Assembly: GCA_029266575.1 (NCBI GenBank)
Contig: JAQSWP010000003.1
Location: forward strand, 1 to 47,639
DNA: 47,639 nt
Source of the DNA: Alphaproteobacteria bacterium
GTDB taxonomy: Bacteria > Pseudomonadota > Alphaproteobacteria > Reyranellales > JAQSWP01
Direction of reading: 5' to 3'
Shown: positions 14,488-47,639 of the stretch, piece after piece
Position numbering within the stretch: the first letter of the stretch is position 1
How the letters are laid out: every line of letters begins with the position of its first letter
Position numbers and translations under genes: made by a program
The notes under the pieces: model-generated
The model's database searches: none
Seen by the model: the letters and a program-made list of their open reading frames with translations, nothing else
Told to the model about the DNA's origin: nothing

Positions 14488-14580
14488 GCAACAGTCTTGA
14501 GTAGACAATACCGTCGCTTTGTACCAAATGCACTCATTACGGTGCTGCGGCATAGAATAGAGAGCGAGGAGGCCGGCGCC

Positions 14581-15705
14581 ATGCTGCTTGAGACGGAACA
14601 GGAGATAGCCTTTCGCGAGACCTGCCGCCGCTTCGCCGAGCGGGAAATCCGCCCGCTGGTCGATGGCGCCGAACAATCGGGCAAATTTCCCAAGGTGCTC
14701 CTAGAGAAAGCCGCAGCGGCCGGGCTACTCGCCATAACGGCAGCGGAGGAACATGGCGGCGCCGGCGCCGGGCTGATCTACCAGTGCATTCTGGTCGAGG
14801 AAAGCGCCAGGGTCTGCGCCGGGCTTGGCACCGGCTTCATCAGCCTCGGCAACCGCCTGTTGCCGCGCGTCGGCACGGCAGCGCAGATCGAACGCTATTA
14901 TTTGCCGTTGCTGCGCGGCGAGAAAACGGCCGCCTTTGCCATGACCGAGCCGGATGCCGGTTCCGACGTGCTGGCCATGCGCGGCACCGCCGAGCGCAGC
15001 AACGGCGGCTGGCGCATCCGCGCCAGCAAGATGTACATCACCGGCGCGCCATTCAGCGACTACATGCTGGTCGTGGTCTACACCGACAAAAAAGCCCGTC
15101 GCGGCGGGCTCAGCGTGTTCCTGGTCGACAGCGATCTGCCCGGCATCGAGATCCGCAAGCTCGACAAGCTGGGCCATCGCTCGATGGAAACCGGCGCCGT
15201 GTTCTTCGACTGCGAAGCGCCTGACCAAGCGCTGATCGGCGAACCCGGACGCGGCATGGACTATGTGATGTCGGTGCTCGAGGACGGACGCATCCTGCAT
15301 GCCGCGCGGAGCCTCGGCGTGGCGCGCGCAGCGCTGGAAGATGCCGAAAGCTATGCGCGACTGCGCACCACCTTCGGCAAGAGCATCAACCAGTACCAGG
15401 CGATCCAGCACAAGCTGGCGCATATGCTGATCGAGGTCAGCAATGCGCAACTGCAGGTGCGCCAGGCGGCGCTGAAATTCGATGCCGGCCTGCCCTGCCA
15501 GCTCGACGCCTCGGTCGCCAAGGTGGTTGCCAGCGAAGCCGCCGTCAGCGTCACCGACCAGGCAATGCGCATCGTGGCCGGCGCCGGCTATCTCAACGAA
15601 TTACCGATCCAGCGCTATTTCCGCGATGCCCGCCTCTATCCCATCACTGAGGGCACGACGGAAATCCAGCTGCGCAACATTGCCCGTATTGCCGGCTTCG
15701 CCTAA
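14581..15705 (+). CDS. Acyl-CoA dehydrogenase
   Basis: Start MLLETEQEIAFRETCRRFAEREI at 14581 (ORF from 14497). AFAMTEPDAGSD; YPITEGTTEIQLRNIAR with canonical Glu. Confidence 0.92.
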   Translation: MLLETEQEIAFRETCRRFAEREIRPLVDGAEQSGKFPKVLLEKAAAAGLLAITAAEEHGGAGAGLIYQCILVEESARVCAGLGTGFISLGNRLLPRVGTAAQIERYYLPLLRGEKTAAFAMTEPDAGSDVLAMRGTAERSNGGWRIRASKMYITGAPFSDYMLVVVYTDKKARRGGLSVFLVDSDLPGIEIRKLDKLGHRSMETGAVFFDCEAPDQALIGEPGRGMDYVMSVLEDGRILHAARSLGVARAALEDAESYARLRTTFGKSINQYQAIQHKLAHMLIEVSNAQLQVRQAALKFDAGLPCQLDASVAKVVASEAAVSVTDQAMRIVAGAGYLNELPIQRYFRDARLYPITEGTTEIQLRNIARIAGFA

Positions 15706-15889: not shown

Positions 15890-16600
15890 ATGCCGTCACC
15901 TTCCAACCAGCGTAGCCGCCCCCAGCGTACCCCCAACAAGGTCCGCCGCGCCGAAACCCGCGAGGCGGTGCTGGTGGCGGCAAGAAGCCTGTTCGTGCGG
16001 CAAGGATATCTCCGCACCAGCGTCGACGAGATCGCCCGTCAGGCCGGCATTTCCAAGGGCGGCATCTATTTCCATTTTCCCGACAAGGCCGACATCGTCC
16101 ACGAGCTGCTGATGAATACGATCGAGCTCTACCGCGATCTGCTGGGCGAGCTACGCGATCGATCGAAGCCGCCGCTCGAGCGGCTGCGCTCGTACATGAA
16201 CTGGACCTCCAATCTCGGCGCGCGCGAGCCGGAAGCCATGCTGCTGCCGATTCTGATCTCGCTGGAATTCCTGCATACCGGCCACGAAATCGAATCGCTG
16301 ACGCGCAGCCATTACGATGCCATCCATCGCGGCCTGCAGCTGACCATCTTCGACGGTCGCAAGGCAGGCGTCTTCAACAAGCGCTCCGGCGCGCGCGAGC
16401 AGGCAGCGAACATCATCCTCATGGGCGACGGCGCGCTGCTGGAATGGCTGCGACGCAGCGACGTTCTCAGCGGCACCAAGCTTGCCCGCGCCTTGCAACA
16501 GTTCATTCTCGACGCCCTGCTCGTTCCCGACGCGCAGCAAGCGGCCGTCGCCCTGCCGGCGGTGCAGACAGCCGCGCCCCCGCCCGCCAAGCGGCGCTAA
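15890..16600 (+). CDS. TetR/AcrR family regulator
   Basis: HTH ARSLFVRQGYLRTSVDEIARQAGISKGGIYFHFPDKADIVHELL. Confidence 0.92.
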   Translation: MPSPSNQRSRPQRTPNKVRRAETREAVLVAARSLFVRQGYLRTSVDEIARQAGISKGGIYFHFPDKADIVHELLMNTIELYRDLLGELRDRSKPPLERLRSYMNWTSNLGAREPEAMLLPILISLEFLHTGHEIESLTRSHYDAIHRGLQLTIFDGRKAGVFNKRSGAREQAANIILMGDGALLEWLRRSDVLSGTKLARALQQFILDALLVPDAQQAAVALPAVQTAAPPPAKRR

Positions 16601-36761: not shown

Positions 36762-37622
36762 TCAGAACGGCGCATCGCCGTCGATCTGTACCCGCCGCAT
36801 GCGGCGCAGCTCCGAATAGTCGTCGAGCGCGTAATGCTGGGTGCAGCGATTGTCCCAGATCGCCAGCGACCCCGCCTCCCAGCGGAAACGGCATTGAAAT
36901 TCAGGACGGCCCAGATGCTCGAACAGACCCTGCAGGATGCTGCGGCTCTCCACCTCCGGCACGCCGACGATGGACTGGGTATAGCCGGAATTGACGAAGA
37001 TCAGCTTGCGGCCAGTGACCGGGTGGGTGCGGATGACGGGATGCATCACCGCCTTGTCGACAACCACGCCTTCGTTGCGCAGCGTGCCGTCGGCGGCGTA
37101 GAGCTTGCGCACCAGCGAATTGTCGTGCATCGCCTTGAGGCCGGAGAGATACGACTTCATCGCCTCGGACAAGCCATCGTAGGCGGCGTACATGCTGGCC
37201 CACATCGTGTCGCCGCCAACCGACGGCACTATCTCGGCATAGAGCAGCGAACCCAGTGGCGGGCGCTCGTAGTCGGTATTGTCGGCATGCCATAGCGCGC
37301 CGATCGCCTTCTTGCTGCCGTCGTTCTCCAGCAGCGAGACGTCCTCGTAGCCGTCGTACATTTTCAGCTTCTTCGAATAGGCCGGCGTGCCGAAGCGCAG
37401 CGCCAGATCGCGATGCTGCTCGGTGGAAAGTTTCTGGTCGCGGAAGAAGATCACCTGCCAGGTGAGGAAGGTTTCCTCAATGGCGGCGAACAGCGCATCG
37501 TCGACGCCGCGCGACAGATCGACATCGAGGATCTCCGCGCCGATCACGGGGGTGAGCGGCCTGATAGCAAGCGCGCGGGTTTGCGGCCGCAGTGCAAGCG
37601 ACGTCGTTGCATGAATACCCAT
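36762..37622 (-). CDS. TauD/TfdA-family 2-oxoglutarate/Fe(II)-dependent dioxygenase
   Basis: GAEILDVDLSRGVDDALFAAIEETFLTWQVIFFRDQ; HxD in LWHADNTDYERPPLGS; distal His WDNRCTQHYALDDYSELRRMRRVQIDGD. Confidence 0.93.
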   Translation of the reverse strand: MGIHATTSLALRPQTRALAIRPLTPVIGAEILDVDLSRGVDDALFAAIEETFLTWQVIFFRDQKLSTEQHRDLALRFGTPAYSKKLKMYDGYEDVSLLENDGSKKAIGALWHADNTDYERPPLGSLLYAEIVPSVGGDTMWASMYAAYDGLSEAMKSYLSGLKAMHDNSLVRKLYAADGTLRNEGVVVDKAVMHPVIRTHPVTGRKLIFVNSGYTQSIVGVPEVESRSILQGLFEHLGRPEFQCRFRWEAGSLAIWDNRCTQHYALDDYSELRRMRRVQIDGDAPF

Positions 37623-37651
37623 CGCGCCCTCCCTCAAGCGTCGTATCGCCG

Positions 37652-37670
37652 GGGGCCGAAAAGCGGCCCC
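37652..37670. repeat. Short hairpin GGGGCCG-AAAAG-CGGCCCC in leader of tauD-like gene
   Basis: 7-bp perfect arms read directly, 30-48 bp upstream of the start at 37622. Confidence 0.5.
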
Positions 37671-37752
37671 TGCAGGCCTTTTCTTACTGCGCTTCCGGTG
37701 GCCTATTTCCGGAGCGCTGAACGTCAGTACTGCGACAATAGATAGTAAATTA

Positions 37753-37812
37753 TATCAATACCAGAGGCTCCGGCACCAAATTGTATCAATATATGGGCGG
37801 TAAAGTATCAAT
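37753..37812. promoter_or_regulatory. Triple TATCAAT direct-repeat array upstream of tauD-like operon
   Basis: TATCAAT at 37753-37759, 37784-37790 and 37806-37812; offsets 31 and 22 bp, all on the same strand. Confidence 0.6.
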
Positions 37813-37851
37813 TGGCATATCCCAGGCGGCCACCCGATGGTGCGACAGCGC

Positions 37852-39162
37852 CTACTGCGCGCCGGCGCCGAACAGCTTCTCGCGCATGACGCCCGGCTCG
37901 TATTGCGTGCGGAAGACGCCGCGCTTCTGCAGTTCAGGAACCACCAGATCGACGAACTCGTCGACGCTGCCCGGCAGATAGTCGGTCGTCAGCATCATGA
38001 AGCCGTCGCCGGCCTCGGCGAACGCCGCTTCCATCTGGTCGGCGATCTGCCGCGGGTTGCCGAAAATGCGCATGCCGGCCAGGCCGCAGCCATAGCGGCG
38101 TCCGGCATCGGCCAGCGTCACTTCCGGCCCGAAATCGCTGATTACCGAATCGAGAATGCCGCGGACGCCGGAGATCGCGATGTTCTCGAGCGGCTTGTCC
38201 ATCGGCAGCGAAGAGAGATCGTAGCCCAGATGCCCCGACATTAGCGACAGCCCGGCTTCGGGCGCCACGCGCGCCATCATGGCTTGCTCGCGCGCGCGTG
38301 CCGATGCCTCGTCGTCGCCTAAGATTGCGGTCAGGCCCCACAGGACCTTGACGCTTTCGGGTTTGCGCCCCGCCGCCGCCAGCGCCGCGTCGAGGCGCGC
38401 GCGATGGCTCTTCATGCCGTCGACCGAAGCGCGCACGGCGAAATGGATTTCGGTGTGCCGGGCAGCGAAAGCGGTGCCTTCGGCCGAGGCGCCGGCTTGA
38501 ATGATGGTGGGTCGGCCCTGCGGCGTGCGCGGCACGCTGAGCGGGCCGGCGCAGCGGAAATATTTGCCGACGTGATTGATGCGATGGACCTTGTCGGGAT
38601 CGGCGAAGACGCCGGTCTCGCGGTCCATGACCACGGCGTCCGGCTCCCAGCTGTTCCACAGCTTGTTGCAGACTTCCATGTACTCCTCGGCGCGCTCGTA
38701 GCGCGCCTTGTGGTCGAGCACATCGTCGCGGCCGAAATTCGCCGCTTCGCTGCGGCTGAACCCGGCGACGACGTTCCAGCCAATGCGCCCGTCGGTCAAA
38801 TCGTCGAGCGTGGCGAACAGGCGCGCCAGGTAATAAGGCTCCATGTAGCTGGTGTTGGCGGTCAGGCCGAAGCAGAGATTGGTCGTCACCCGGCTCATGA
38901 TCGGAATCAGCAGCGACGCATCGCTGCGGGGAAACTGCAGTCCGTACTTGATCGCCATCGACGGGCTGCCCTTGTACACGTCATGCAGATTGAACGTGTC
39001 GGCCAGGAACAGCATGTCGAAGCAGCCCCGCTCCAGGGTGCGGGCCAGATGCTCCCAGTACTGAGGCTTGTTGTAGCGAAAGCCGTTGAACGATTTGGGA
39101 TGCCGCCAGACCCCGATCGAATGCGGCGCCGGGGCGTGGGCGATGATTGTGGCAAGATGCAT
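37852..39162 (-). CDS. LLM-class FMN-dependent monooxygenase (NtaA/SnaA/DszA-like)
   Basis: MHLATIIAHAPAPHSIGVWRHPKSFNGFRYNKPQYWEHLARTLERGCFDMLFLADTFNLHD... GWNVVAGFSRSEAANFGRDDVLDHKARYERAEEYMEV. Confidence 0.92.
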   Translation of the reverse strand: MHLATIIAHAPAPHSIGVWRHPKSFNGFRYNKPQYWEHLARTLERGCFDMLFLADTFNLHDVYKGSPSMAIKYGLQFPRSDASLLIPIMSRVTTNLCFGLTANTSYMEPYYLARLFATLDDLTDGRIGWNVVAGFSRSEAANFGRDDVLDHKARYERAEEYMEVCNKLWNSWEPDAVVMDRETGVFADPDKVHRINHVGKYFRCAGPLSVPRTPQGRPTIIQAGASAEGTAFAARHTEIHFAVRASVDGMKSHRARLDAALAAAGRKPESVKVLWGLTAILGDDEASARAREQAMMARVAPEAGLSLMSGHLGYDLSSLPMDKPLENIAISGVRGILDSVISDFGPEVTLADAGRRYGCGLAGMRIFGNPRQIADQMEAAFAEAGDGFMMLTTDYLPGSVDEFVDLVVPELQKRGVFRTQYEPGVMREKLFGAGAQ

Positions 39163-39342
39163 CTGGGGAGGCACTGCAAGACTCCGATTATAGCAATGCC
39201 GGATAAAAACATAGGGTATGGATTGTTGCAATTAAATCATTTGGGGCAATTCGAGCCCCAAACCCGCTTTAGAAGGCGGGATTCCGGGCCGGGCCGGGCG
39301 ATCCTGGCGACCGGCCGGTTGGTTTCTGACAGGAGGCGGTCT

Positions 39343-40812
39343 CTAGATCGAGGTGCCGACCCGGGCGCCCTCGGCATGGAGCAGGCTGCGGATCGTGCCG
39401 AGATAGCGGGTGAAGGCCTCGTCCGAGGAGGGTGAGGTCAGGGCCAGACGCACGCCGTTCATGTCCGGGCTGACGCCTGAGATGACGAAGTTCTGCGATC
39501 CGCCGAGCGCCACGCCCTGCACCCGTGCGGCGGTGGTGAAGGCTTCCGACGTCCACATACTGGGCAGTTCGAGCCAGGCAAGCCAGCTCAAGGGGTGCGC
39601 CCTGAGTGAATAGGGCGCCAGCAACTCGCGCGCGATGGCCATGCGGCGGGCGACCAGCGCCTTCGATTCGTCGCAGATCCGCTCCAGCGCGCCGGAATCG
39701 AGCAGAGCTTTGATGACCTCGACGTTGAACATCGAGGCGTAGACGTGATGCGTCTTGATCGCCGTGTTGAGCTGCGAAGCCCAGCCGCGCGGCACCGCTA
39801 GGAACCCGACATTGACGCTGGGGCTGATCGATTTGGCGCCGCTGGTGATCAGCAGGGTCCGTTCCGGCGCCAAGGTTGCTGCCATCACGCGGCCTTTGTC
39901 GAAGGCCAAGGGCGCGGCATTGTCCTCGATGATGATCAGATCGTATTTGCGCGCGATTTCCACGATCTCGCGCAAGCGCGCTTCGCTGGTAGAGAAGCAG
40001 GTCGGATTGTGGACGATCGACTGCAAATAGAGCACGCGCCCGCCCGACTGCTTGCAGCCGAGCTCGATCGATTTCGCGATCGGGCCTTCCTCGTCGACTT
40101 CGATCGGCACCAGCGGATGGTCGTGGGCAATGGCGATATTGCGCAGACCTGCGAAGGTCAGCACCGGCGTCATCACCGGCAGCCGCCGCAGGTTTTCAGA
40201 AAACAGGATGAGATAGAGCGCCGCATGCGCGCCGCTGGTCAGCACCACGTTGTCGATATCGACCTGCAGGCCGAGGCGCGCGAACCAGTCGACGCCGACC
40301 TGGCGGAAGCGTTCGCCGACCTGCGCGCCATGCGGATGGTAGCGGCCGAGGGTGAAGTTGAAATCCTCGCTCGCCCGGCGGATTGCGTCATGCAATTCGG
40401 GCGCGAGGTTGCCGGCGCCGACATTGGGCACCGCCAGATCACCCAGCAATCCCGGCTCGACCTGCGGCTGAGCCCCGCGCGCGATCGGGCTGGCGCGGTC
40501 TTCGACATATTCGGCATCGCGCGGCAGGCGCGGCGCGGAAGCGCCACGGCGTACGAACGTGCCGCGCCCGGTTTCGCCGGAGATCAGCCCGCGCTCGGCG
40601 GCGATGGCGTAGGCGCGCGCGGTCGTGCCCGGCGTCAGCCCCAGCATCTTGGCCAGTTCGCGCTGGGTGGGAATCTGCTGCTTCTCGCGCAGCTGGCCGG
40701 ACTCGATCATCTCGACCAGGGCTTCGACGATGGCGATATAACGCGGGCCGAACTGACGGCCGATTGCCGCCACCCACTGTTCCTTATTCACCATCCGATC
40801 CTCGCCAAGCAT
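39343..40812 (-). CDS. MocR-type GntR transcriptional regulator
   Basis: IPTQRELAKMLGLTPGTTARAYAIAAERGLISGETGRGTFV; aminotransferase-like domain with SGAKSISPSVNVGF Lys. Confidence 0.9.
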   Translation of the reverse strand: MLGEDRMVNKEQWVAAIGRQFGPRYIAIVEALVEMIESGQLREKQQIPTQRELAKMLGLTPGTTARAYAIAAERGLISGETGRGTFVRRGASAPRLPRDAEYVEDRASPIARGAQPQVEPGLLGDLAVPNVGAGNLAPELHDAIRRASEDFNFTLGRYHPHGAQVGERFRQVGVDWFARLGLQVDIDNVVLTSGAHAALYLILFSENLRRLPVMTPVLTFAGLRNIAIAHDHPLVPIEVDEEGPIAKSIELGCKQSGGRVLYLQSIVHNPTCFSTSEARLREIVEIARKYDLIIIEDNAAPLAFDKGRVMAATLAPERTLLITSGAKSISPSVNVGFLAVPRGWASQLNTAIKTHHVYASMFNVEVIKALLDSGALERICDESKALVARRMAIARELLAPYSLRAHPLSWLAWLELPSMWTSEAFTTAARVQGVALGGSQNFVISGVSPDMNGVRLALTSPSSDEAFTRYLGTIRSLLHAEGARVGTSI

Positions 40813-40928
40813 CCTGCGCGTTCGGAACGGCGGCTCTGTCGTTTCAAAAGACGGACGATCTCGCTCATGGGCGCCTCAGGTATCGCGGACATCGCCTGAT
40901 ATCAAGCCTTGCCAAAAGCAATGGTACA

Positions 40929-40961
40929 ATTGCTTTATTATTGGATTAATTGCTGTATTTT
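40929..40961. promoter_or_regulatory. 20-bp-spaced direct repeat AATTGCTTTATTA / AATTGCTGTATTT between mocR and divergent LLM gene
   Basis: Repeat starts at 40929 and 40949; lies between MocR (start 40812, -) and LLM (start 40985, +). Confidence 0.55.
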
Positions 40962-40984
40962 AGCGCGGACGGGAGGGAGCGGCG

Positions 40985-42118
40985 ATGAGTGTTCGACTTG
41001 GACTATTCTACCCCAACGCGAGAGCCATCCATACGATTTCCGGGCAGGTTGCCGCCAGGAACCCCGATGTGCTCGACATCAAGAGCCATGTGGCGGTGGC
41101 GCAGGCCTGCGAGCGGATCGGGCTGGACTACCTGTTCGTGGCCGATGCCTGGGGCGCCTACGGCCCGCTTATGTCCTCGTTCGGCCTGCAAGATCCCATG
41201 CTGCTGCCGCCGATTCTCGCCGCCTCCCTGATTGCGGTGACGGAGAAGATCCGCCTCATAACCACGCTGCACACCTCGTGGTTCGATCCACTGCAATACG
41301 TGCGCATCGGCGGCACGCTCGATCAGTTGAGCGGCGGGCGCTGGGGCATGAACATGGTCTCCGGTGCGGGCTTCGCCACCTCGATCACGGGCGGACCGGT
41401 CGATCTCTCGCATGACGGGCGCTACGATCGGGCGCGCGAATTCGTCGAGGTCATGACGCAAGCCTGGTCGACGGGCAAAGTCGATTTCGACGGCGAGCAT
41501 TTCCGCATCCATGGCGCCATCGTCGGTCCAGGCACGGTGCAGCAGCCGCGCCCGTTTTTGGTGAGCGCCGGCGCCTCCGATGCCGGGCGCGATTTCGCCG
41601 GCCATTATGCCGACTGCATCTTCATGCCCGGACGCACGCCCAAGGAGGAGCTCAAGACGCGCGTCGCCGACATTCGCCGCATCGCCACCGCGGCCGGCCG
41701 ACCGGCAGACGCGATCAAGGTGCAGATGCATGCCAGCGTCGCGCTGCGCGACACCGCTGCGGAGGCGAAGGAATATTCCGAGTGGATCGCCCAGTCGATC
41801 GACCTGCCTGCCGTCGCCGAGTATCTCAACGCCGTGCGGGCCAATATCTCGACCTATGACGATATCTACAGCTCGCTGGGCGAGCTGCAAATGCGCGCCA
41901 TCGGCATGGTGTCCGGCGCCCGCAAGATCCATGGCGGGCCAAGCGAAGTAGCCGACGGCATCGCCCAGCTCGTCAACGAGTTCGGCTGCGATGGCGTCGC
42001 CATCAGCCTGCCCATATGGCAGCCGGAAGAGATCGAGCGCTTCGGCCGGAAGGTGCTGCCGATCCTGGAAGAGCGAGGCCTGTGGTCACATCCGAAGACG
42101 CGCGATTTCGGCTGGTAG
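40985..42118 (+). CDS. LLM-class flavin-dependent monooxygenase
   Basis: VRLGLFYPNARAIHTISGQVAARNP... LDYLFVADAWGAYG... LDQLSGGRWGMNMVSG; paralogous to 286..1440. Confidence 0.9.
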   Translation: MSVRLGLFYPNARAIHTISGQVAARNPDVLDIKSHVAVAQACERIGLDYLFVADAWGAYGPLMSSFGLQDPMLLPPILAASLIAVTEKIRLITTLHTSWFDPLQYVRIGGTLDQLSGGRWGMNMVSGAGFATSITGGPVDLSHDGRYDRAREFVEVMTQAWSTGKVDFDGEHFRIHGAIVGPGTVQQPRPFLVSAGASDAGRDFAGHYADCIFMPGRTPKEELKTRVADIRRIATAAGRPADAIKVQMHASVALRDTAAEAKEYSEWIAQSIDLPAVAEYLNAVRANISTYDDIYSSLGELQMRAIGMVSGARKIHGGPSEVADGIAQLVNEFGCDGVAISLPIWQPEEIERFGRKVLPILEERGLWSHPKTRDFGW

Positions 42119-42674: not shown

Positions 42675-43472
42675 TTATCGTGAAAAGATCTCGCCATTGG
42701 CGACCGGAATGGCCTGCCCGGTGATTGCCTCTGCGCCCTGACTGGCCAGCCAGGCGACCGCAGCGGCAACTTCTGCCGGCTTGATTAGCTTGCCAGCTGG
42801 ATTACCTTTCGCCAGATCGTCCCTAATATCGGCTTCGGATCGGCCCGTTAGACGCACCATCTTGTCGACCGCGCCCTGCAGCAGTGGCGTCTCGGTGTAT
42901 CCTGGGCAAACCGCGTTGATCGTCACGCCGGTGCCGATCGTTTCCAGCGCCAGGGATCGGGTAAACCCCAGAACCGCATGCTTGGATGCGCAATAACCGC
43001 TTACATAGGGATAACCGGCGAGAGCTGCGGTCGACGCAATGTTGATCACGCGCCCAAAGCCTGCGCCTATCATCGCCGGCAGAACTTGTTGTGTGCAGGC
43101 AAAGAGTTGCACCAAGTTGACGTCGAGCATCTGACGCACACTCGCCAGGGACGTGCGCAGAAAGGGCGCGCTTTCCGCCCGCCCGGCATTGTTCACCAAC
43201 ACGTCGATGCGGCCGAGTTGGGCCGCTGCCTGCGCGAAGCCTTTCTTTACAGCGCCGTCGTCCGTCACATCGAAGGCAATGACGCTGATCGGCGCGCCAG
43301 ATTGGCGCAGCGTATCGGCTTGCTCATCCAAAATCGACCGGCGGCGGCCGACCAGTGTTACCCGGGCGCCTTCTTCCGCGAATACTCTAGCGATCGCCGC
43401 GCCGATTCCCGTGCCACCGCCTGTTATAAGAACATGCCTGGTCGTCGCATCGGGAAGCGGGTCGGAAGCCAT
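42675..43472 (-). CDS. SDR family oxidoreductase
   Basis: TGGGTGIGAAIARVFAEEGARVTLVGRR; NNAGRAES; YCASKHAVLGFTRSLALE. Confidence 0.92.
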   Translation of the reverse strand: MASDPLPDATTRHVLITGGGTGIGAAIARVFAEEGARVTLVGRRRSILDEQADTLRQSGAPISVIAFDVTDDGAVKKGFAQAAAQLGRIDVLVNNAGRAESAPFLRTSLASVRQMLDVNLVQLFACTQQVLPAMIGAGFGRVINIASTAALAGYPYVSGYCASKHAVLGFTRSLALETIGTGVTINAVCPGYTETPLLQGAVDKMVRLTGRSEADIRDDLAKGNPAGKLIKPAEVAAAVAWLASQGAEAITGQAIPVANGEIFSR

Positions 43473-43474
43473 CG

Positions 43475-44185
43475 TTATTCCTCTTCAGCTCCGCCGAGCG
43501 AGGGCCTGGCATCGACCATCTCTGCCGTCAGAATGCCGACTAGGCAGTCGATCAGATTTCCAATCTCGACCGAGTTGCGCGCCTTGGCTCCGACGGGCCG
43601 CACAGCGGCCAGTTCGCGCTCGATGTCGGCCAGGCCCTGTCCCAGCGTCTTCAGGACGATTTCCATGCGCAGATTGGCGATCTTGCGCGGCAACTGCGGA
43701 CACAGGTAGCGATAATGAGCGGCACAACCCAGCACGCTGGAATAATGGCGGCGACGCACCAGTACGTTGACATGCTCGGGCGAGCTTTGCGCCCGTTCGA
43801 GAAAGCGGCAATAGAAACTGCGTCCGACGGCCTGCAACAGCGTTCCAGCCAGAGGCTCGACGAGGATCCGGGCGATGTCTCGCATCGCCGGCGGCTTGCC
43901 GCTTTGATCGAGCTCAGTCAGCAGGTGCAAGCGACGCTCGTTGATCGGCGACATGCGCATTTCAAAGATGGCATCCACCAAGGCGGAGCGCGTGCCGAAA
44001 TGATATTGTAATGCTGATTCGTTGCCGACTTTCGCCGCCTGGATGATCTGTTTGGAACTAACACCGTCGATTCCATGCTGCGCGAACAATCGTTCGGCCG
44101 CCTCGATCAGACGCATTCGGGTGTTGGTGCGTCGAACTGTCTTGGCCGGCGCCCGCCGCTTCCTTGTGCTTTTTTTCAAGGCCAT
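43475..44185 (-). CDS. TetR/AcrR family regulator
   Basis: TRMRLIEAAERLFAQHGIDGVSSKQIIQAAKVGNESALQYHFGTRSALVDAIFEMR. Confidence 0.9.
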   Translation of the reverse strand: MALKKSTRKRRAPAKTVRRTNTRMRLIEAAERLFAQHGIDGVSSKQIIQAAKVGNESALQYHFGTRSALVDAIFEMRMSPINERRLHLLTELDQSGKPPAMRDIARILVEPLAGTLLQAVGRSFYCRFLERAQSSPEHVNVLVRRRHYSSVLGCAAHYRYLCPQLPRKIANLRMEIVLKTLGQGLADIERELAAVRPVGAKARNSVEIGNLIDCLVGILTAEMVDARPSLGGAEEE

Positions 44186-44272: not shown

Positions 44273-44290
44273 TTAATGAGTTGACATTAA
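44273..44290. promoter_or_regulatory. Palindrome TTAATG-N6-CATTAA between TetR and tctB; overlaps TTGACA-like -35
   Basis: TTAATGAGTTGACATTAA read directly; same arms and spacer length as 47508-47525. Confidence 0.65.
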
Positions 44291-44405: not shown

Positions 44406-44849
44406 ATGGCGATACGCAATTTGAAGGATTTTCTGTCAGGCGCGATGTTCATCACCTTCGGCGCTCTCGGCCTATGGTTCGGCCGCGGGTATACCGTGGG
44501 CACGACGTTCCAGATGGGACCGGGCTATTTCCCCCTAGTTCTTTCGATCGGTTTGATCGCCATCGGACTGATCGTAGTGGTTCGCTCCCTGGCGCAGACA
44601 GGCGATGCGCCTGAAAGAGGATCGCTGCGGCCGCTGGCAGTCGTGCTGTGCGCTGTGACGGCGTTCGGATTGCTGGTCGAATTCGCCGGCCTGATCGCCG
44701 CCGTTGCCGTCACCGTCTTGGTGGGCGGACTGGCCTCTCTCGAGAGCCGCAGACTAGAACTCGCCATATTGGCGGTTGGGACCGCCGTCTTCTGCGCCGC
44801 GTTGTTCGTATATGGGCTGGGACTACCGATTCCGCTCTGGCCACGCTGA
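44406..44849 (+). CDS. tctB: Tripartite tricarboxylate transporter small membrane protein (TctB-like)
   Basis: 147 aa, four predicted TM; RNLKDFLSGAMFITFGALGLWFGRGYTVGTTFQMGPGYFPLVLSIGLIAIGL. Confidence 0.9.
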   Translation: MAIRNLKDFLSGAMFITFGALGLWFGRGYTVGTTFQMGPGYFPLVLSIGLIAIGLIVVVRSLAQTGDAPERGSLRPLAVVLCAVTAFGLLVEFAGLIAAVAVTVLVGGLASLESRRLELAILAVGTAVFCAALFVYGLGLPIPLWPR

Positions 44850-46348
44850 TGGAAGTTCTGAACAATCTGGGGACCGGATTTTCCGCAGCGCTGACGCTGA
44901 GCGACCTTGGTTTCTGCCTGCTTGGCGTGCTGCTGGGAACATTGGTCGGCGTACTACCGGGCGTTGGGCCGCTCGCCACCATCGCCATGCTCCTGCCGAT
45001 CACTTTCGGGCTCGATCCCCTGCCCGCGCTGATCATGCTGTCGGGCATCTATTACGGTTCGCAATACGGTGGATCGACCACTGCCATCCTGGTCAACATG
45101 CCAGGCGAATCCTCATCGGTCGTTACCTGCATCGACGGCTATCAGATGGCACGCCAGGGCCGCGCCGGGCCGGCGCTCGCGGTTGCCGCCATTGGCTCTT
45201 TCATCGCTGGCTGCATCGCCACCCTGGCGATCGCCGTGTTCGGCCCGGTCCTAGCCGCCTTTTCGCAGCGTTTCAGCGCCCCCGAATACTTCTCGCTGAT
45301 GCTGTTTGGCCTGATCTCCGCCGTCGTCCTGGCGCGCGGTTCGGTAATCAAGGCCGTAGGCATGATCCTGCTCGGCCTGCTGCTGGGCCAGATCGGCACC
45401 GATATCAGTTCAGGCGTGGTGCGCTACACCATGGGAGTGCCGGAACTCTCCGATGGCATCGGCTTTGTACCGCTGGCACTGGGGCTGTTCGGCCTGTCAG
45501 AGATCATCGCCAATCTGGAGAAGCCCGCGCGGCGCAGCATCCTCAGCACCTCGGTGTCCGGACTATGGCTGCGCTGGGTTGAGTTCAAGAGCGCCCTGCC
45601 CGCGATCCTGCGCGGCACCGCGTTAGGGTCGGTGCTGGGAATTCTGCCTGGCGGCGGTGCCGTATTGAGCGCCTTCGCTGCCTACACGCTGGAAAAGAAA
45701 CTGGCCAAGGATCCCTCGCGTTTCGGACGAGGCGCTATCGAGGGCGTGGCCGCTCCCGAGGCAGCCAATAATGCCGGCTCGCAGACCAGCTTCATTCCGC
45801 TGCTGACGCTTGGCATTCCCTCCAACGCCATCATGGCGTTGATGATGGGAGCCATGATGATCCAGGGAATCGCGCCCGGCGCACGGGTGATGGAAGCCCG
45901 ACCCGAACTGTTCTGGGGCCTGGTCGCCAGCATGTGGATCGGTAATCTGCTGCTGCTGATCATCAACCTTCCTCTGATCGGAGTCTGGGTGTGGGTGCTT
46001 CGCATCCCATATCGCCTGTTGTTCCCCGCCGTCATCGTCTTCTGCTGCATTGGAGTCTACAGCCTCAACAACAGCGCCTTCGAGGTCCTTCTGACGGTTA
46101 TGCTGACGTTGTTAGGCTATGCCTGTCTCAAGCTCGACTGCGAACCTGCGCCGCTGTTGCTCGGTTTCGTTCTTGGCGGGCCGCTGGAAGAGAATCTCAG
46201 GCGCGCCATGCTGTTCTCCAAGGGCGACCCGATTATCTTCGTCGAACGGCCGATCAGCGCCGTCATCCTCGCCTTCGCCGCGTTGCTCCTGCTTATGGTG
46301 ATCCTTCCTGCCGTGAGACGTGGACGCGAACGGGCTTTTGTGGAATAG
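44849..46348 (+). CDS. tctA: Tripartite tricarboxylate transporter large permease (TctA-like)
   Basis: Within ORF 44648..46348; start MEVLNNLGTGFSAALTLSDLGFCLLGVLLGTLVGVLPGVGPLATIAMLLPITF overlapping the tctB stop. YYGSQYGGSTTAILVNMPGESSSVVT. Confidence 0.93.
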   Translation: MEVLNNLGTGFSAALTLSDLGFCLLGVLLGTLVGVLPGVGPLATIAMLLPITFGLDPLPALIMLSGIYYGSQYGGSTTAILVNMPGESSSVVTCIDGYQMARQGRAGPALAVAAIGSFIAGCIATLAIAVFGPVLAAFSQRFSAPEYFSLMLFGLISAVVLARGSVIKAVGMILLGLLLGQIGTDISSGVVRYTMGVPELSDGIGFVPLALGLFGLSEIIANLEKPARRSILSTSVSGLWLRWVEFKSALPAILRGTALGSVLGILPGGGAVLSAFAAYTLEKKLAKDPSRFGRGAIEGVAAPEAANNAGSQTSFIPLLTLGIPSNAIMALMMGAMMIQGIAPGARVMEARPELFWGLVASMWIGNLLLLIINLPLIGVWVWVLRIPYRLLFPAVIVFCCIGVYSLNNSAFEVLLTVMLTLLGYACLKLDCEPAPLLLGFVLGGPLEENLRRAMLFSKGDPIIFVERPISAVILAFAALLLLMVILPAVRRGRERAFVE

Positions 46349-46351
46349 GCC

Positions 46352-47500
46352 ATGGGCGCGCTAGCTGGATTCTCGATCGTCGAATTCGCCGGCATCGGCC
46401 CAGTGCCGTTCTGCGGCATGCTGCTGGCCGACATGGGAGCCGACATCGTCCGCATCGACCCGGTCGATGATGCCGGCCGCGGCATTGGTCTGCCGCCGCG
46501 CTACCAGGTGATGGCCCGCGGCAGACACACCATCGCCATCGACCTCAAGCAGCCGCGCGGCCGGGAGATCGCGCTAGCGTTGACCGAGCGGGCCGACGCG
46601 CTGATCGAAGGATTCCGCCCCGGAGTGATGGAACGATTGGGGCTCGGACCGGAAATCTGCCTGGCGCGCAACGAGAAGCTTGTCTACGGGCGCATGACTG
46701 GATGGGGCCAGGAAGGTCCTTGGGCACAGAAGGCGGGACACGATATCAACTACATCGCGCTGGCGGGCGCACTGTTCGCCATCGGGGAGAACGAAGGCGA
46801 TCCGGTGCCACCGCTCAATCTCGTTGGCGATTTTGGCGGTGGCGCGCTTTATCTCTGTATAGGCGTGCTGTCGGCACTGCTTGAAACCTCCCGTTCCGGC
46901 CGGGGACAGGTCGTCGACGCCGCAATCGTTGACGGTGCGGCTTCGCTTATGGGGCCGCTGCTGGGACGCATCTCCCACGGATCCTGGGTCGAACGGCGTG
47001 GCAGCAACCCCTTCGATTCGGGCTCGCATTTCTACGGCACGTACAAAACGTCCGACGGCGCACATATAGCGTTAGGCGCCGTCGAACCGAAATTCTACCG
47101 CGAACTTCTCGACGTCCTTGGTCTGGCGGACGACGCCGACTTCCGCGACCGACAGATGGATCGCAGTGCCTGGCCTGGCCTGAAAGCGCGATTGGCCAAG
47201 ATCTTCGCCCAGCGCTCAATGGCGCAATGGTGCGAAGCTTTCGGCGACCGCGACGCGTGTTTTGCCCCGGTGCTGCCTCCAAGCGCGGCACGAGAGCATC
47301 CGCATCTCCGCGCCCGCGGCACCATCGTCGAACGCGACGGCGTGCTCGAACCCGCCCCTGCGCCGCGCTTCAGCCGGACGCCGTCCAACCGCGGCGACCG
47401 GCCGAAGGATCGCGGCGCCGATACCGATGCAGTGCTGCGGCAGCTGGGATTGGAGGCTGCCGAAATTGCGACGCTGCGCCATAAAGGTATCGTCGCATAA
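46352..47500 (+). CDS. Family III CoA-transferase superfamily, alpha-methylacyl-CoA racemase (AMACR)-like
   Basis: VEFAGIGPVPFCGMLLADMGADIVRID; AGHDINYIALAGALFAIGE (His/Asp signature of AMACR); YGTYKTSDGAHIALGAVEPKFYRELL. Confidence 0.9.
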   Translation: MGALAGFSIVEFAGIGPVPFCGMLLADMGADIVRIDPVDDAGRGIGLPPRYQVMARGRHTIAIDLKQPRGREIALALTERADALIEGFRPGVMERLGLGPEICLARNEKLVYGRMTGWGQEGPWAQKAGHDINYIALAGALFAIGENEGDPVPPLNLVGDFGGGALYLCIGVLSALLETSRSGRGQVVDAAIVDGAASLMGPLLGRISHGSWVERRGSNPFDSGSHFYGTYKTSDGAHIALGAVEPKFYRELLDVLGLADDADFRDRQMDRSAWPGLKARLAKIFAQRSMAQWCEAFGDRDACFAPVLPPSAAREHPHLRARGTIVERDGVLEPAPAPRFSRTPSNRGDRPKDRGADTDAVLRQLGLEAAEIATLRHKGIVA

Positions 47501-47507
47501 CCCTCAG

Positions 47508-47525
47508 TTAATGCTTTGACATTAA
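47508..47525. promoter_or_regulatory. Palindrome TTAATG-N6-CATTAA upstream of right-edge gene
   Basis: TTAATGCTTTGACATTAA read directly; identical arms, spacer length and xxTTGA spacer end to 44273-44290. Confidence 0.6.
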
Positions 47526-47581
47526 AAAAATAATGTGGAAGCGTTGATCATGACTTTCGCCGAAGCCAGGGGATATCCGGG

Positions 47582-47639
47582 ATGATTCGCGACCAGAAGC
47601 GCCTCGACAGGGCGCTGGAAAATATCCGCGACGTGGTGC
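47582..47639 (+). CDS. Acyl-CoA dehydrogenase N-terminus, truncated by window edge
   Basis: ATG at 47582: MIRDQKRLDRALENIRDVV..., resembling ACAD starts of the MIRD..tLd.lLd.iR.fV type. Confidence 0.45.
   Translation, partial: MIRDQKRLDRALENIRDVV

Follow-up and report, generated by a model that had tools for sequence, protein, structure and literature searches.

Three exact copies of the palindrome TTAATG-N6-CATTAA, designated S1 to S3, are very probably the operators of the adjacent TetR-family regulator, which would place a local catabolic cluster under one repressor. Two of them lie in the window, i.e. the whole stretch of 47,639 nucleotides analysed, which is the whole of contig C173. 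S1 (TTAATG-AGTTGA-CATTAA, 44273..44290, no strand assigned) matches exactly within the 220-bp divergent intergenic region of tetR and tctB, its centre being 96.5 bp from the tetR ATG and 124.5 bp from the tctB ATG. S2 (TTAATG-CTTTGA-CATTAA, 47508..47525, no strand assigned), also an exact match, occupies the gap between a CoA-transferase gene and an acyl-CoA dehydrogenase (ACAD) gene, with its centre 65.5 bp from the ATG of the latter. An earlier note on this DNA had described both 18-mers at these positions, with equal 6-bp arms, 6-bp spacing and a common NNTTGA spacer, and had predicted a further copy downstream of the window. The genome search located that copy, S3, on contig C286 (C286:6002-6019), where the genes for TctC and an enoyl-CoA hydratase lead away from it in opposite directions. 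Read toward tctB, ACAD and tctC, respectively, S1, S2 and S3 all correspond to TTAATGNNTTGACATTAAAA; the arms are invariant and the first two spacer positions differ.

The rarity of the palindrome bears on whether the repeats arose by chance, or stem from a mobile or structural element and have no regulatory meaning. The A-rich, partly similar flanks found downstream of S1 to S3 would fit such an origin. However, under a first-order Markov model built on the window, exact TTAATG-N6-CATTAA sites are expected 0.0002 times in its 47.6 kb and 0.015 times in the 3.66-Mb draft genome. The genome has three, each at a different promoter region of a single cluster, and the arms stay constant while the first two spacer positions vary; this explanation is extremely improbable. 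Throughout the whole draft genome, the only exact matches are S1, S2 (seen twice because of a contig overlap, see below) and S3, and no further site appears at up to one mismatch. Six two-mismatch sites occur elsewhere in the genome and are no commoner than those of a reversed-pattern control. Outside the source genome, the stricter pattern TTAATGNNNTGACATTAA is found once in each of two out of 385 genomes of the class; no TetR-like gene was recognised beside either match, one of which lies in a locus of 33% GC.

Organization of the cluster and joining of two contigs

As the earlier note claimed, S1 separates the TetR gene from the divergent tctBA-CoA transferase genes. The regulator (43475..44185, minus strand; 236 aa) carries a TetR_N domain (PF00440, E 2.4e-9, 37.3 bits vs a cut-off of 24) with the recognition region NESALQYHFG, and is followed downstream on the same strand by a short-chain dehydrogenase/reductase (SDR) gene (42675..43472; PF00106, E 2.6e-59). 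On the plus strand, S1 is followed by the genes for the small membrane subunit TctB of a tripartite tricarboxylate transporter (44406..44849; PF07331, E 6.8e-18), the large membrane subunit TctA (44849..46348; PF01970, E 9.5e-154) and a family III CoA-transferase of the CaiB/AMACR superfamily (46352..47500; PF02515, E 3e-83). The right-edge gene (47582..47639, plus strand), cut by the end of the window and previously called ACAD-like, is a genuine acyl-CoA dehydrogenase (PF00441, E 2.6e-39), complete on C286 (locus L011, 319-1476).

Positions 47264-47639 of the window overlap positions 1-376 of C286 (L011) over 376 bp with 7 mismatches. Because of these mismatches, the assembly break between C173 and C286 is read as probable strain variation, and the cluster probably runs on into C286. 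The identical palindrome at C286:245-262 is S2 again and not a new site, since the contig ends overlap.

The joined cluster spans about 13 kb. Leftward SDR and TetR genes, S1 and rightward TctB, TctA and CoA-transferase genes lead to S2; then come rightward genes for the acyl-CoA dehydrogenase and an ADP-forming acyl-CoA synthetase, leftward genes for an MBL-fold hydrolase and TctC, S3, and finally rightward genes for an enoyl-CoA hydratase, a thiolase-like protein and a ChsH2-type OB-fold protein. Each of the three apparent promoter regions thus carries one copy of the palindrome, and all flanking genes code for transporter components, CoA-ester or related enzymes, or TetR. Joining the two draft-genome contigs completes the cluster, bringing a full TctABC transporter and CoA-ester enzymes under one predicted switch. 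The predicted co-regulation by TetR, already proposed in the earlier note, is well supported, the three exact sites being all intergenic, all in one cluster and found nowhere else in the genome.

The last two products, encoded at L011 6892-8462, are a thiolase-like protein and then a ChsH2-type zinc ribbon/OB-fold protein. This pair presumably resembles the Ltp2-ChsH2 aldolase arrangement known from the degradation of steroid side chains.

The palindrome upstream of TetR homologues

The 300 bp upstream of 24 non-redundant, distant TetR homologues from other families, picked by protein similarity alone, were scanned for the palindrome. With arms cut from TTAATG to TAATG after the first results were seen, TAATG-N6-CATTA precedes its own gene exactly in 4/24 cases, with at most one mismatch in 6/24 and with at most two in 12/24, as compared with shuffle means of 0.01, 0.21 and 2.08; none of 100 shuffles reached the observed counts. 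The full TTAATG arms gave two exact sites and five within one mismatch among the 24. The excess is specific to the 6-bp spacer (0-2 sites at one mismatch for other spacers), TAATG outscores the others in a set of 60 five-base arms with comparable base composition, and downstream control regions yielded 1/24 at one mismatch. Sites of this kind include TTTAATGTATATGCATTAA (G257), TTAATGGATCTTCATTAA (G414) and TTTAATGCGTTCGCATTAG (G169), as well as a tandem pair in G278. Since the palindrome is far above chance upstream of distant homologues, it appears tied to TetR itself rather than to mere proximity, and the link between TetR and palindrome drawn in the earlier note is strongly supported by these sequence comparisons.

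A search with the G257 TetR recovered a family of seven homologues (57-100% protein identity) in which TTAATG-N6-CATTAA is exact in six and altered by one change in the seventh; the spacer letters vary and the palindrome is kept in all seven genomes. On a tree of 39 homologues, where near-copies add to the clustering of the operator and deep forks are weak, the operator requires 5 changes vs 10.4 in shuffles (reached in 0/500). Among 12 plasmid-borne homologues, mostly more distant, none had the motif at up to one mismatch. The operator-bearing TetRs have in common N-x-S-A-[LIM]-[HQ]-YHFG in the recognition region, which is not a sufficient code because several homologues without the operator have it too. 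Variant palindromes, TTAAAT-N6-ACTTAA, were observed upstream of related TetR genes at three loci (L042, L013 and L015), which suggests that the operator has drifted in sequence there.

TTAATG-N6-CATTAA may, somewhat more probably than otherwise, be the conserved operator of an undescribed NxSAxxYHFG subfamily of TetR regulators, present in several families that are alphaproteobacterial by inference and reused for unrelated neighbouring pathways. If so, regulon members could be read straight from genomes; with the motif, targets of this poorly studied subfamily could be predicted across many members of the class.

The homologues also bear on the identity of the regulator. Further regulators are encoded in the window, and the palindromes could be bound by one of them, for instance a MocR-like protein (39343-40812) or a second TetR (15890-16600). 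Against this, genes for homologues of the adjacent TetR in other families have this palindrome upstream, and the MocR-like and second TetR genes are both without an exact copy in their vicinity; binding by another regulator is accordingly quite unlikely.

Search for orthologues

No close orthologue of TetR, only one weak match, was found in a set of 84,980 species represented by one genome each, and none among the 385 class genomes or in a phylum sample. Relatives of the same order encode no close orthologue, only paralogues of about 36% identity with other neighbours. A locus keeping the TetR-tctBA arrangement was found in none of these four sets (the 84,980 species, the order, the 385 class genomes and the phylum sample). 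The three-site arrangement rests on one genome, as no close orthologue with the same neighbourhood was found. The nearest homologue (G359, 37%) is encoded beside a divergent CoA transferase gene and is without the motif.

G034, a genome from the order to which the source genome belongs, has TTAATGAGATGACATTAA at L034 1501-1518 (G034:C111:47956-47973). The TetR-like gene that follows about 30 bp downstream is clearly of another kind. The one-mismatch sites of G034 were rejected as comparable loci, no similar catabolic genes being nearby.

Predicted mode of regulation

The TetR-operator interpretation is supported, the more so now that S3 has been located and homologues have been seen to keep the palindrome. 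A repeat spotted by hand thereby becomes a predicted regulon whose operator can be tested. Computation established where S1 to S3 lie, how they are laid out, that the genome has no other exact copies, and that the palindrome is tied to homologous TetR genes; from the sequence we infer that TetR binds S1 to S3, whereas repression and a CoA-ester ligand are proposed from family knowledge and gene content. A TetR dimer would bind TTAATG-N6-CATTAA at the three promoter regions of the cluster. Its targets would be the divergent tetR-SDR and tctBA-CoA transferase genes at S1, the ACAD and ADP-forming acyl-CoA synthetase genes at S2 and, on C286, the divergent tctC-MBL hydrolase and enoyl-CoA hydratase-thiolase-OB fold genes at S3. 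TetR would most likely repress them for as long as no pathway intermediate is bound. Binding of such a compound, probably a CoA thioester, would release it, and the genes for taking up one organic acid, activating it and degrading it in a beta-oxidation-like manner would be switched on together.

It had also been argued that each palindrome of the window overlaps a -35-like TTGACA hexamer, which would suit repression. The hexamer is indeed present in S1 (44281..44286, plus strand, facing tctB) and S2 (47516..47521, plus strand, facing the ACAD gene), and also within S3, but no matching -10 partner was found. The best TATAAT match 14-20 nt from TTGACA reaches only 3/6 at each of the three sites, and a promoter scan identified no sigma-70 site built on these hexamers. 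The argument from the '-35' overlap is therefore weak.

TetR could also bind S1 to S3 as an activator, or only tune its own gene at S1. Most characterised TetR regulators are repressors, which speaks against these readings. No sigma-70 -10 element was seen that would place the sites relative to a transcription start, which leaves room for them. Streptomyces TetRs encoded more than 200 bp from a divergent gene often regulate only themselves, one being an activator, and the 220-bp tetR-tctB gap is slightly above the 200-bp range of reliable neighbour repression in that genus (PMC3511530). Nevertheless, the catabolic genes are argued to be targets because S2 and S3 stand away from tetR and can only serve those genes. 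Activation or autoregulation alone is thus a minor possibility beside repression of the whole cluster.

Comparison with known regulators

A TetR regulator acting with local operators is a well-known kind of system. FadR of Bacillus subtilis is a TetR-family, acyl-CoA responsive repressor of beta-oxidation whose operator is TGAATGA-n-TCATTCA. We take this operator to have the same 6-6-6 layout as TTAATG-N6-CATTAA, with similar arms.

By analogy, the best-supported reading is a local regulon of the type that MbdR or the FadR of Sulfolobus controls. MbdR of Azoarcus sp. CIB belongs to the TetR family and responds to 3-methylbenzoyl-CoA, and the substrate's CoA ester releases it (PMC4424350). As predicted for the present TetR, MbdR acts through one 18-bp palindrome that recurs at multiple promoters of a single catabolic cluster; in both cases the targets include transporter and CoA-ligase genes, the gene of the regulator itself and an operon-internal promoter (PMC4424350). 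MbdR differs by its operator (ATAC-N10-GTAT), its anaerobic aromatic pathway and its ABC transporter, and its ligand is proved, that of the present TetR predicted (PMC4424350). MbdR was absent from the sequence matches of TetR in a PDB search. The acyl-CoA-binding FadR of Sulfolobus acidocaldarius likewise has few genomic sites (four bound), tied to an acyl-CoA gene cluster; it differs in being archaeal, in its 16-bp motif and in governing a lipid degradation cluster (PMC6449355).

The best NCBIfam match of TetR is PsrA, a TetR-family regulator that governs fatty-acid degradation in Pseudomonas and Vibrio. Identity with PsrA was rejected: the match scores 54.4 bits vs a cut-off of 300, below the equivalog threshold, and S1 to S3 read TTAATGNNTTGACATTAA, unlike the PsrA operator G/CAAAC-N2-4-GTTTG/C (PMC13104628). 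A literature search for the exact TTAATG-N6-CATTAA operator returned nothing relevant, which is weak evidence as most subscription papers lie outside its coverage.

Other genes in the window

The second TetR gene, with no exact palindrome nearby, adjoins an acyl-CoA dehydrogenase gene (14497-15705). Closer to the TetR cluster, a TauD-type dioxygenase gene (36762-37637) and two luciferase-like monooxygenase genes (37852-39231 and 40985-42118) accompany the MocR-like regulator gene. The region 36762-42118 is possibly a second cluster, related to sulfonates or heterocycles, that adjoins the TetR cluster.
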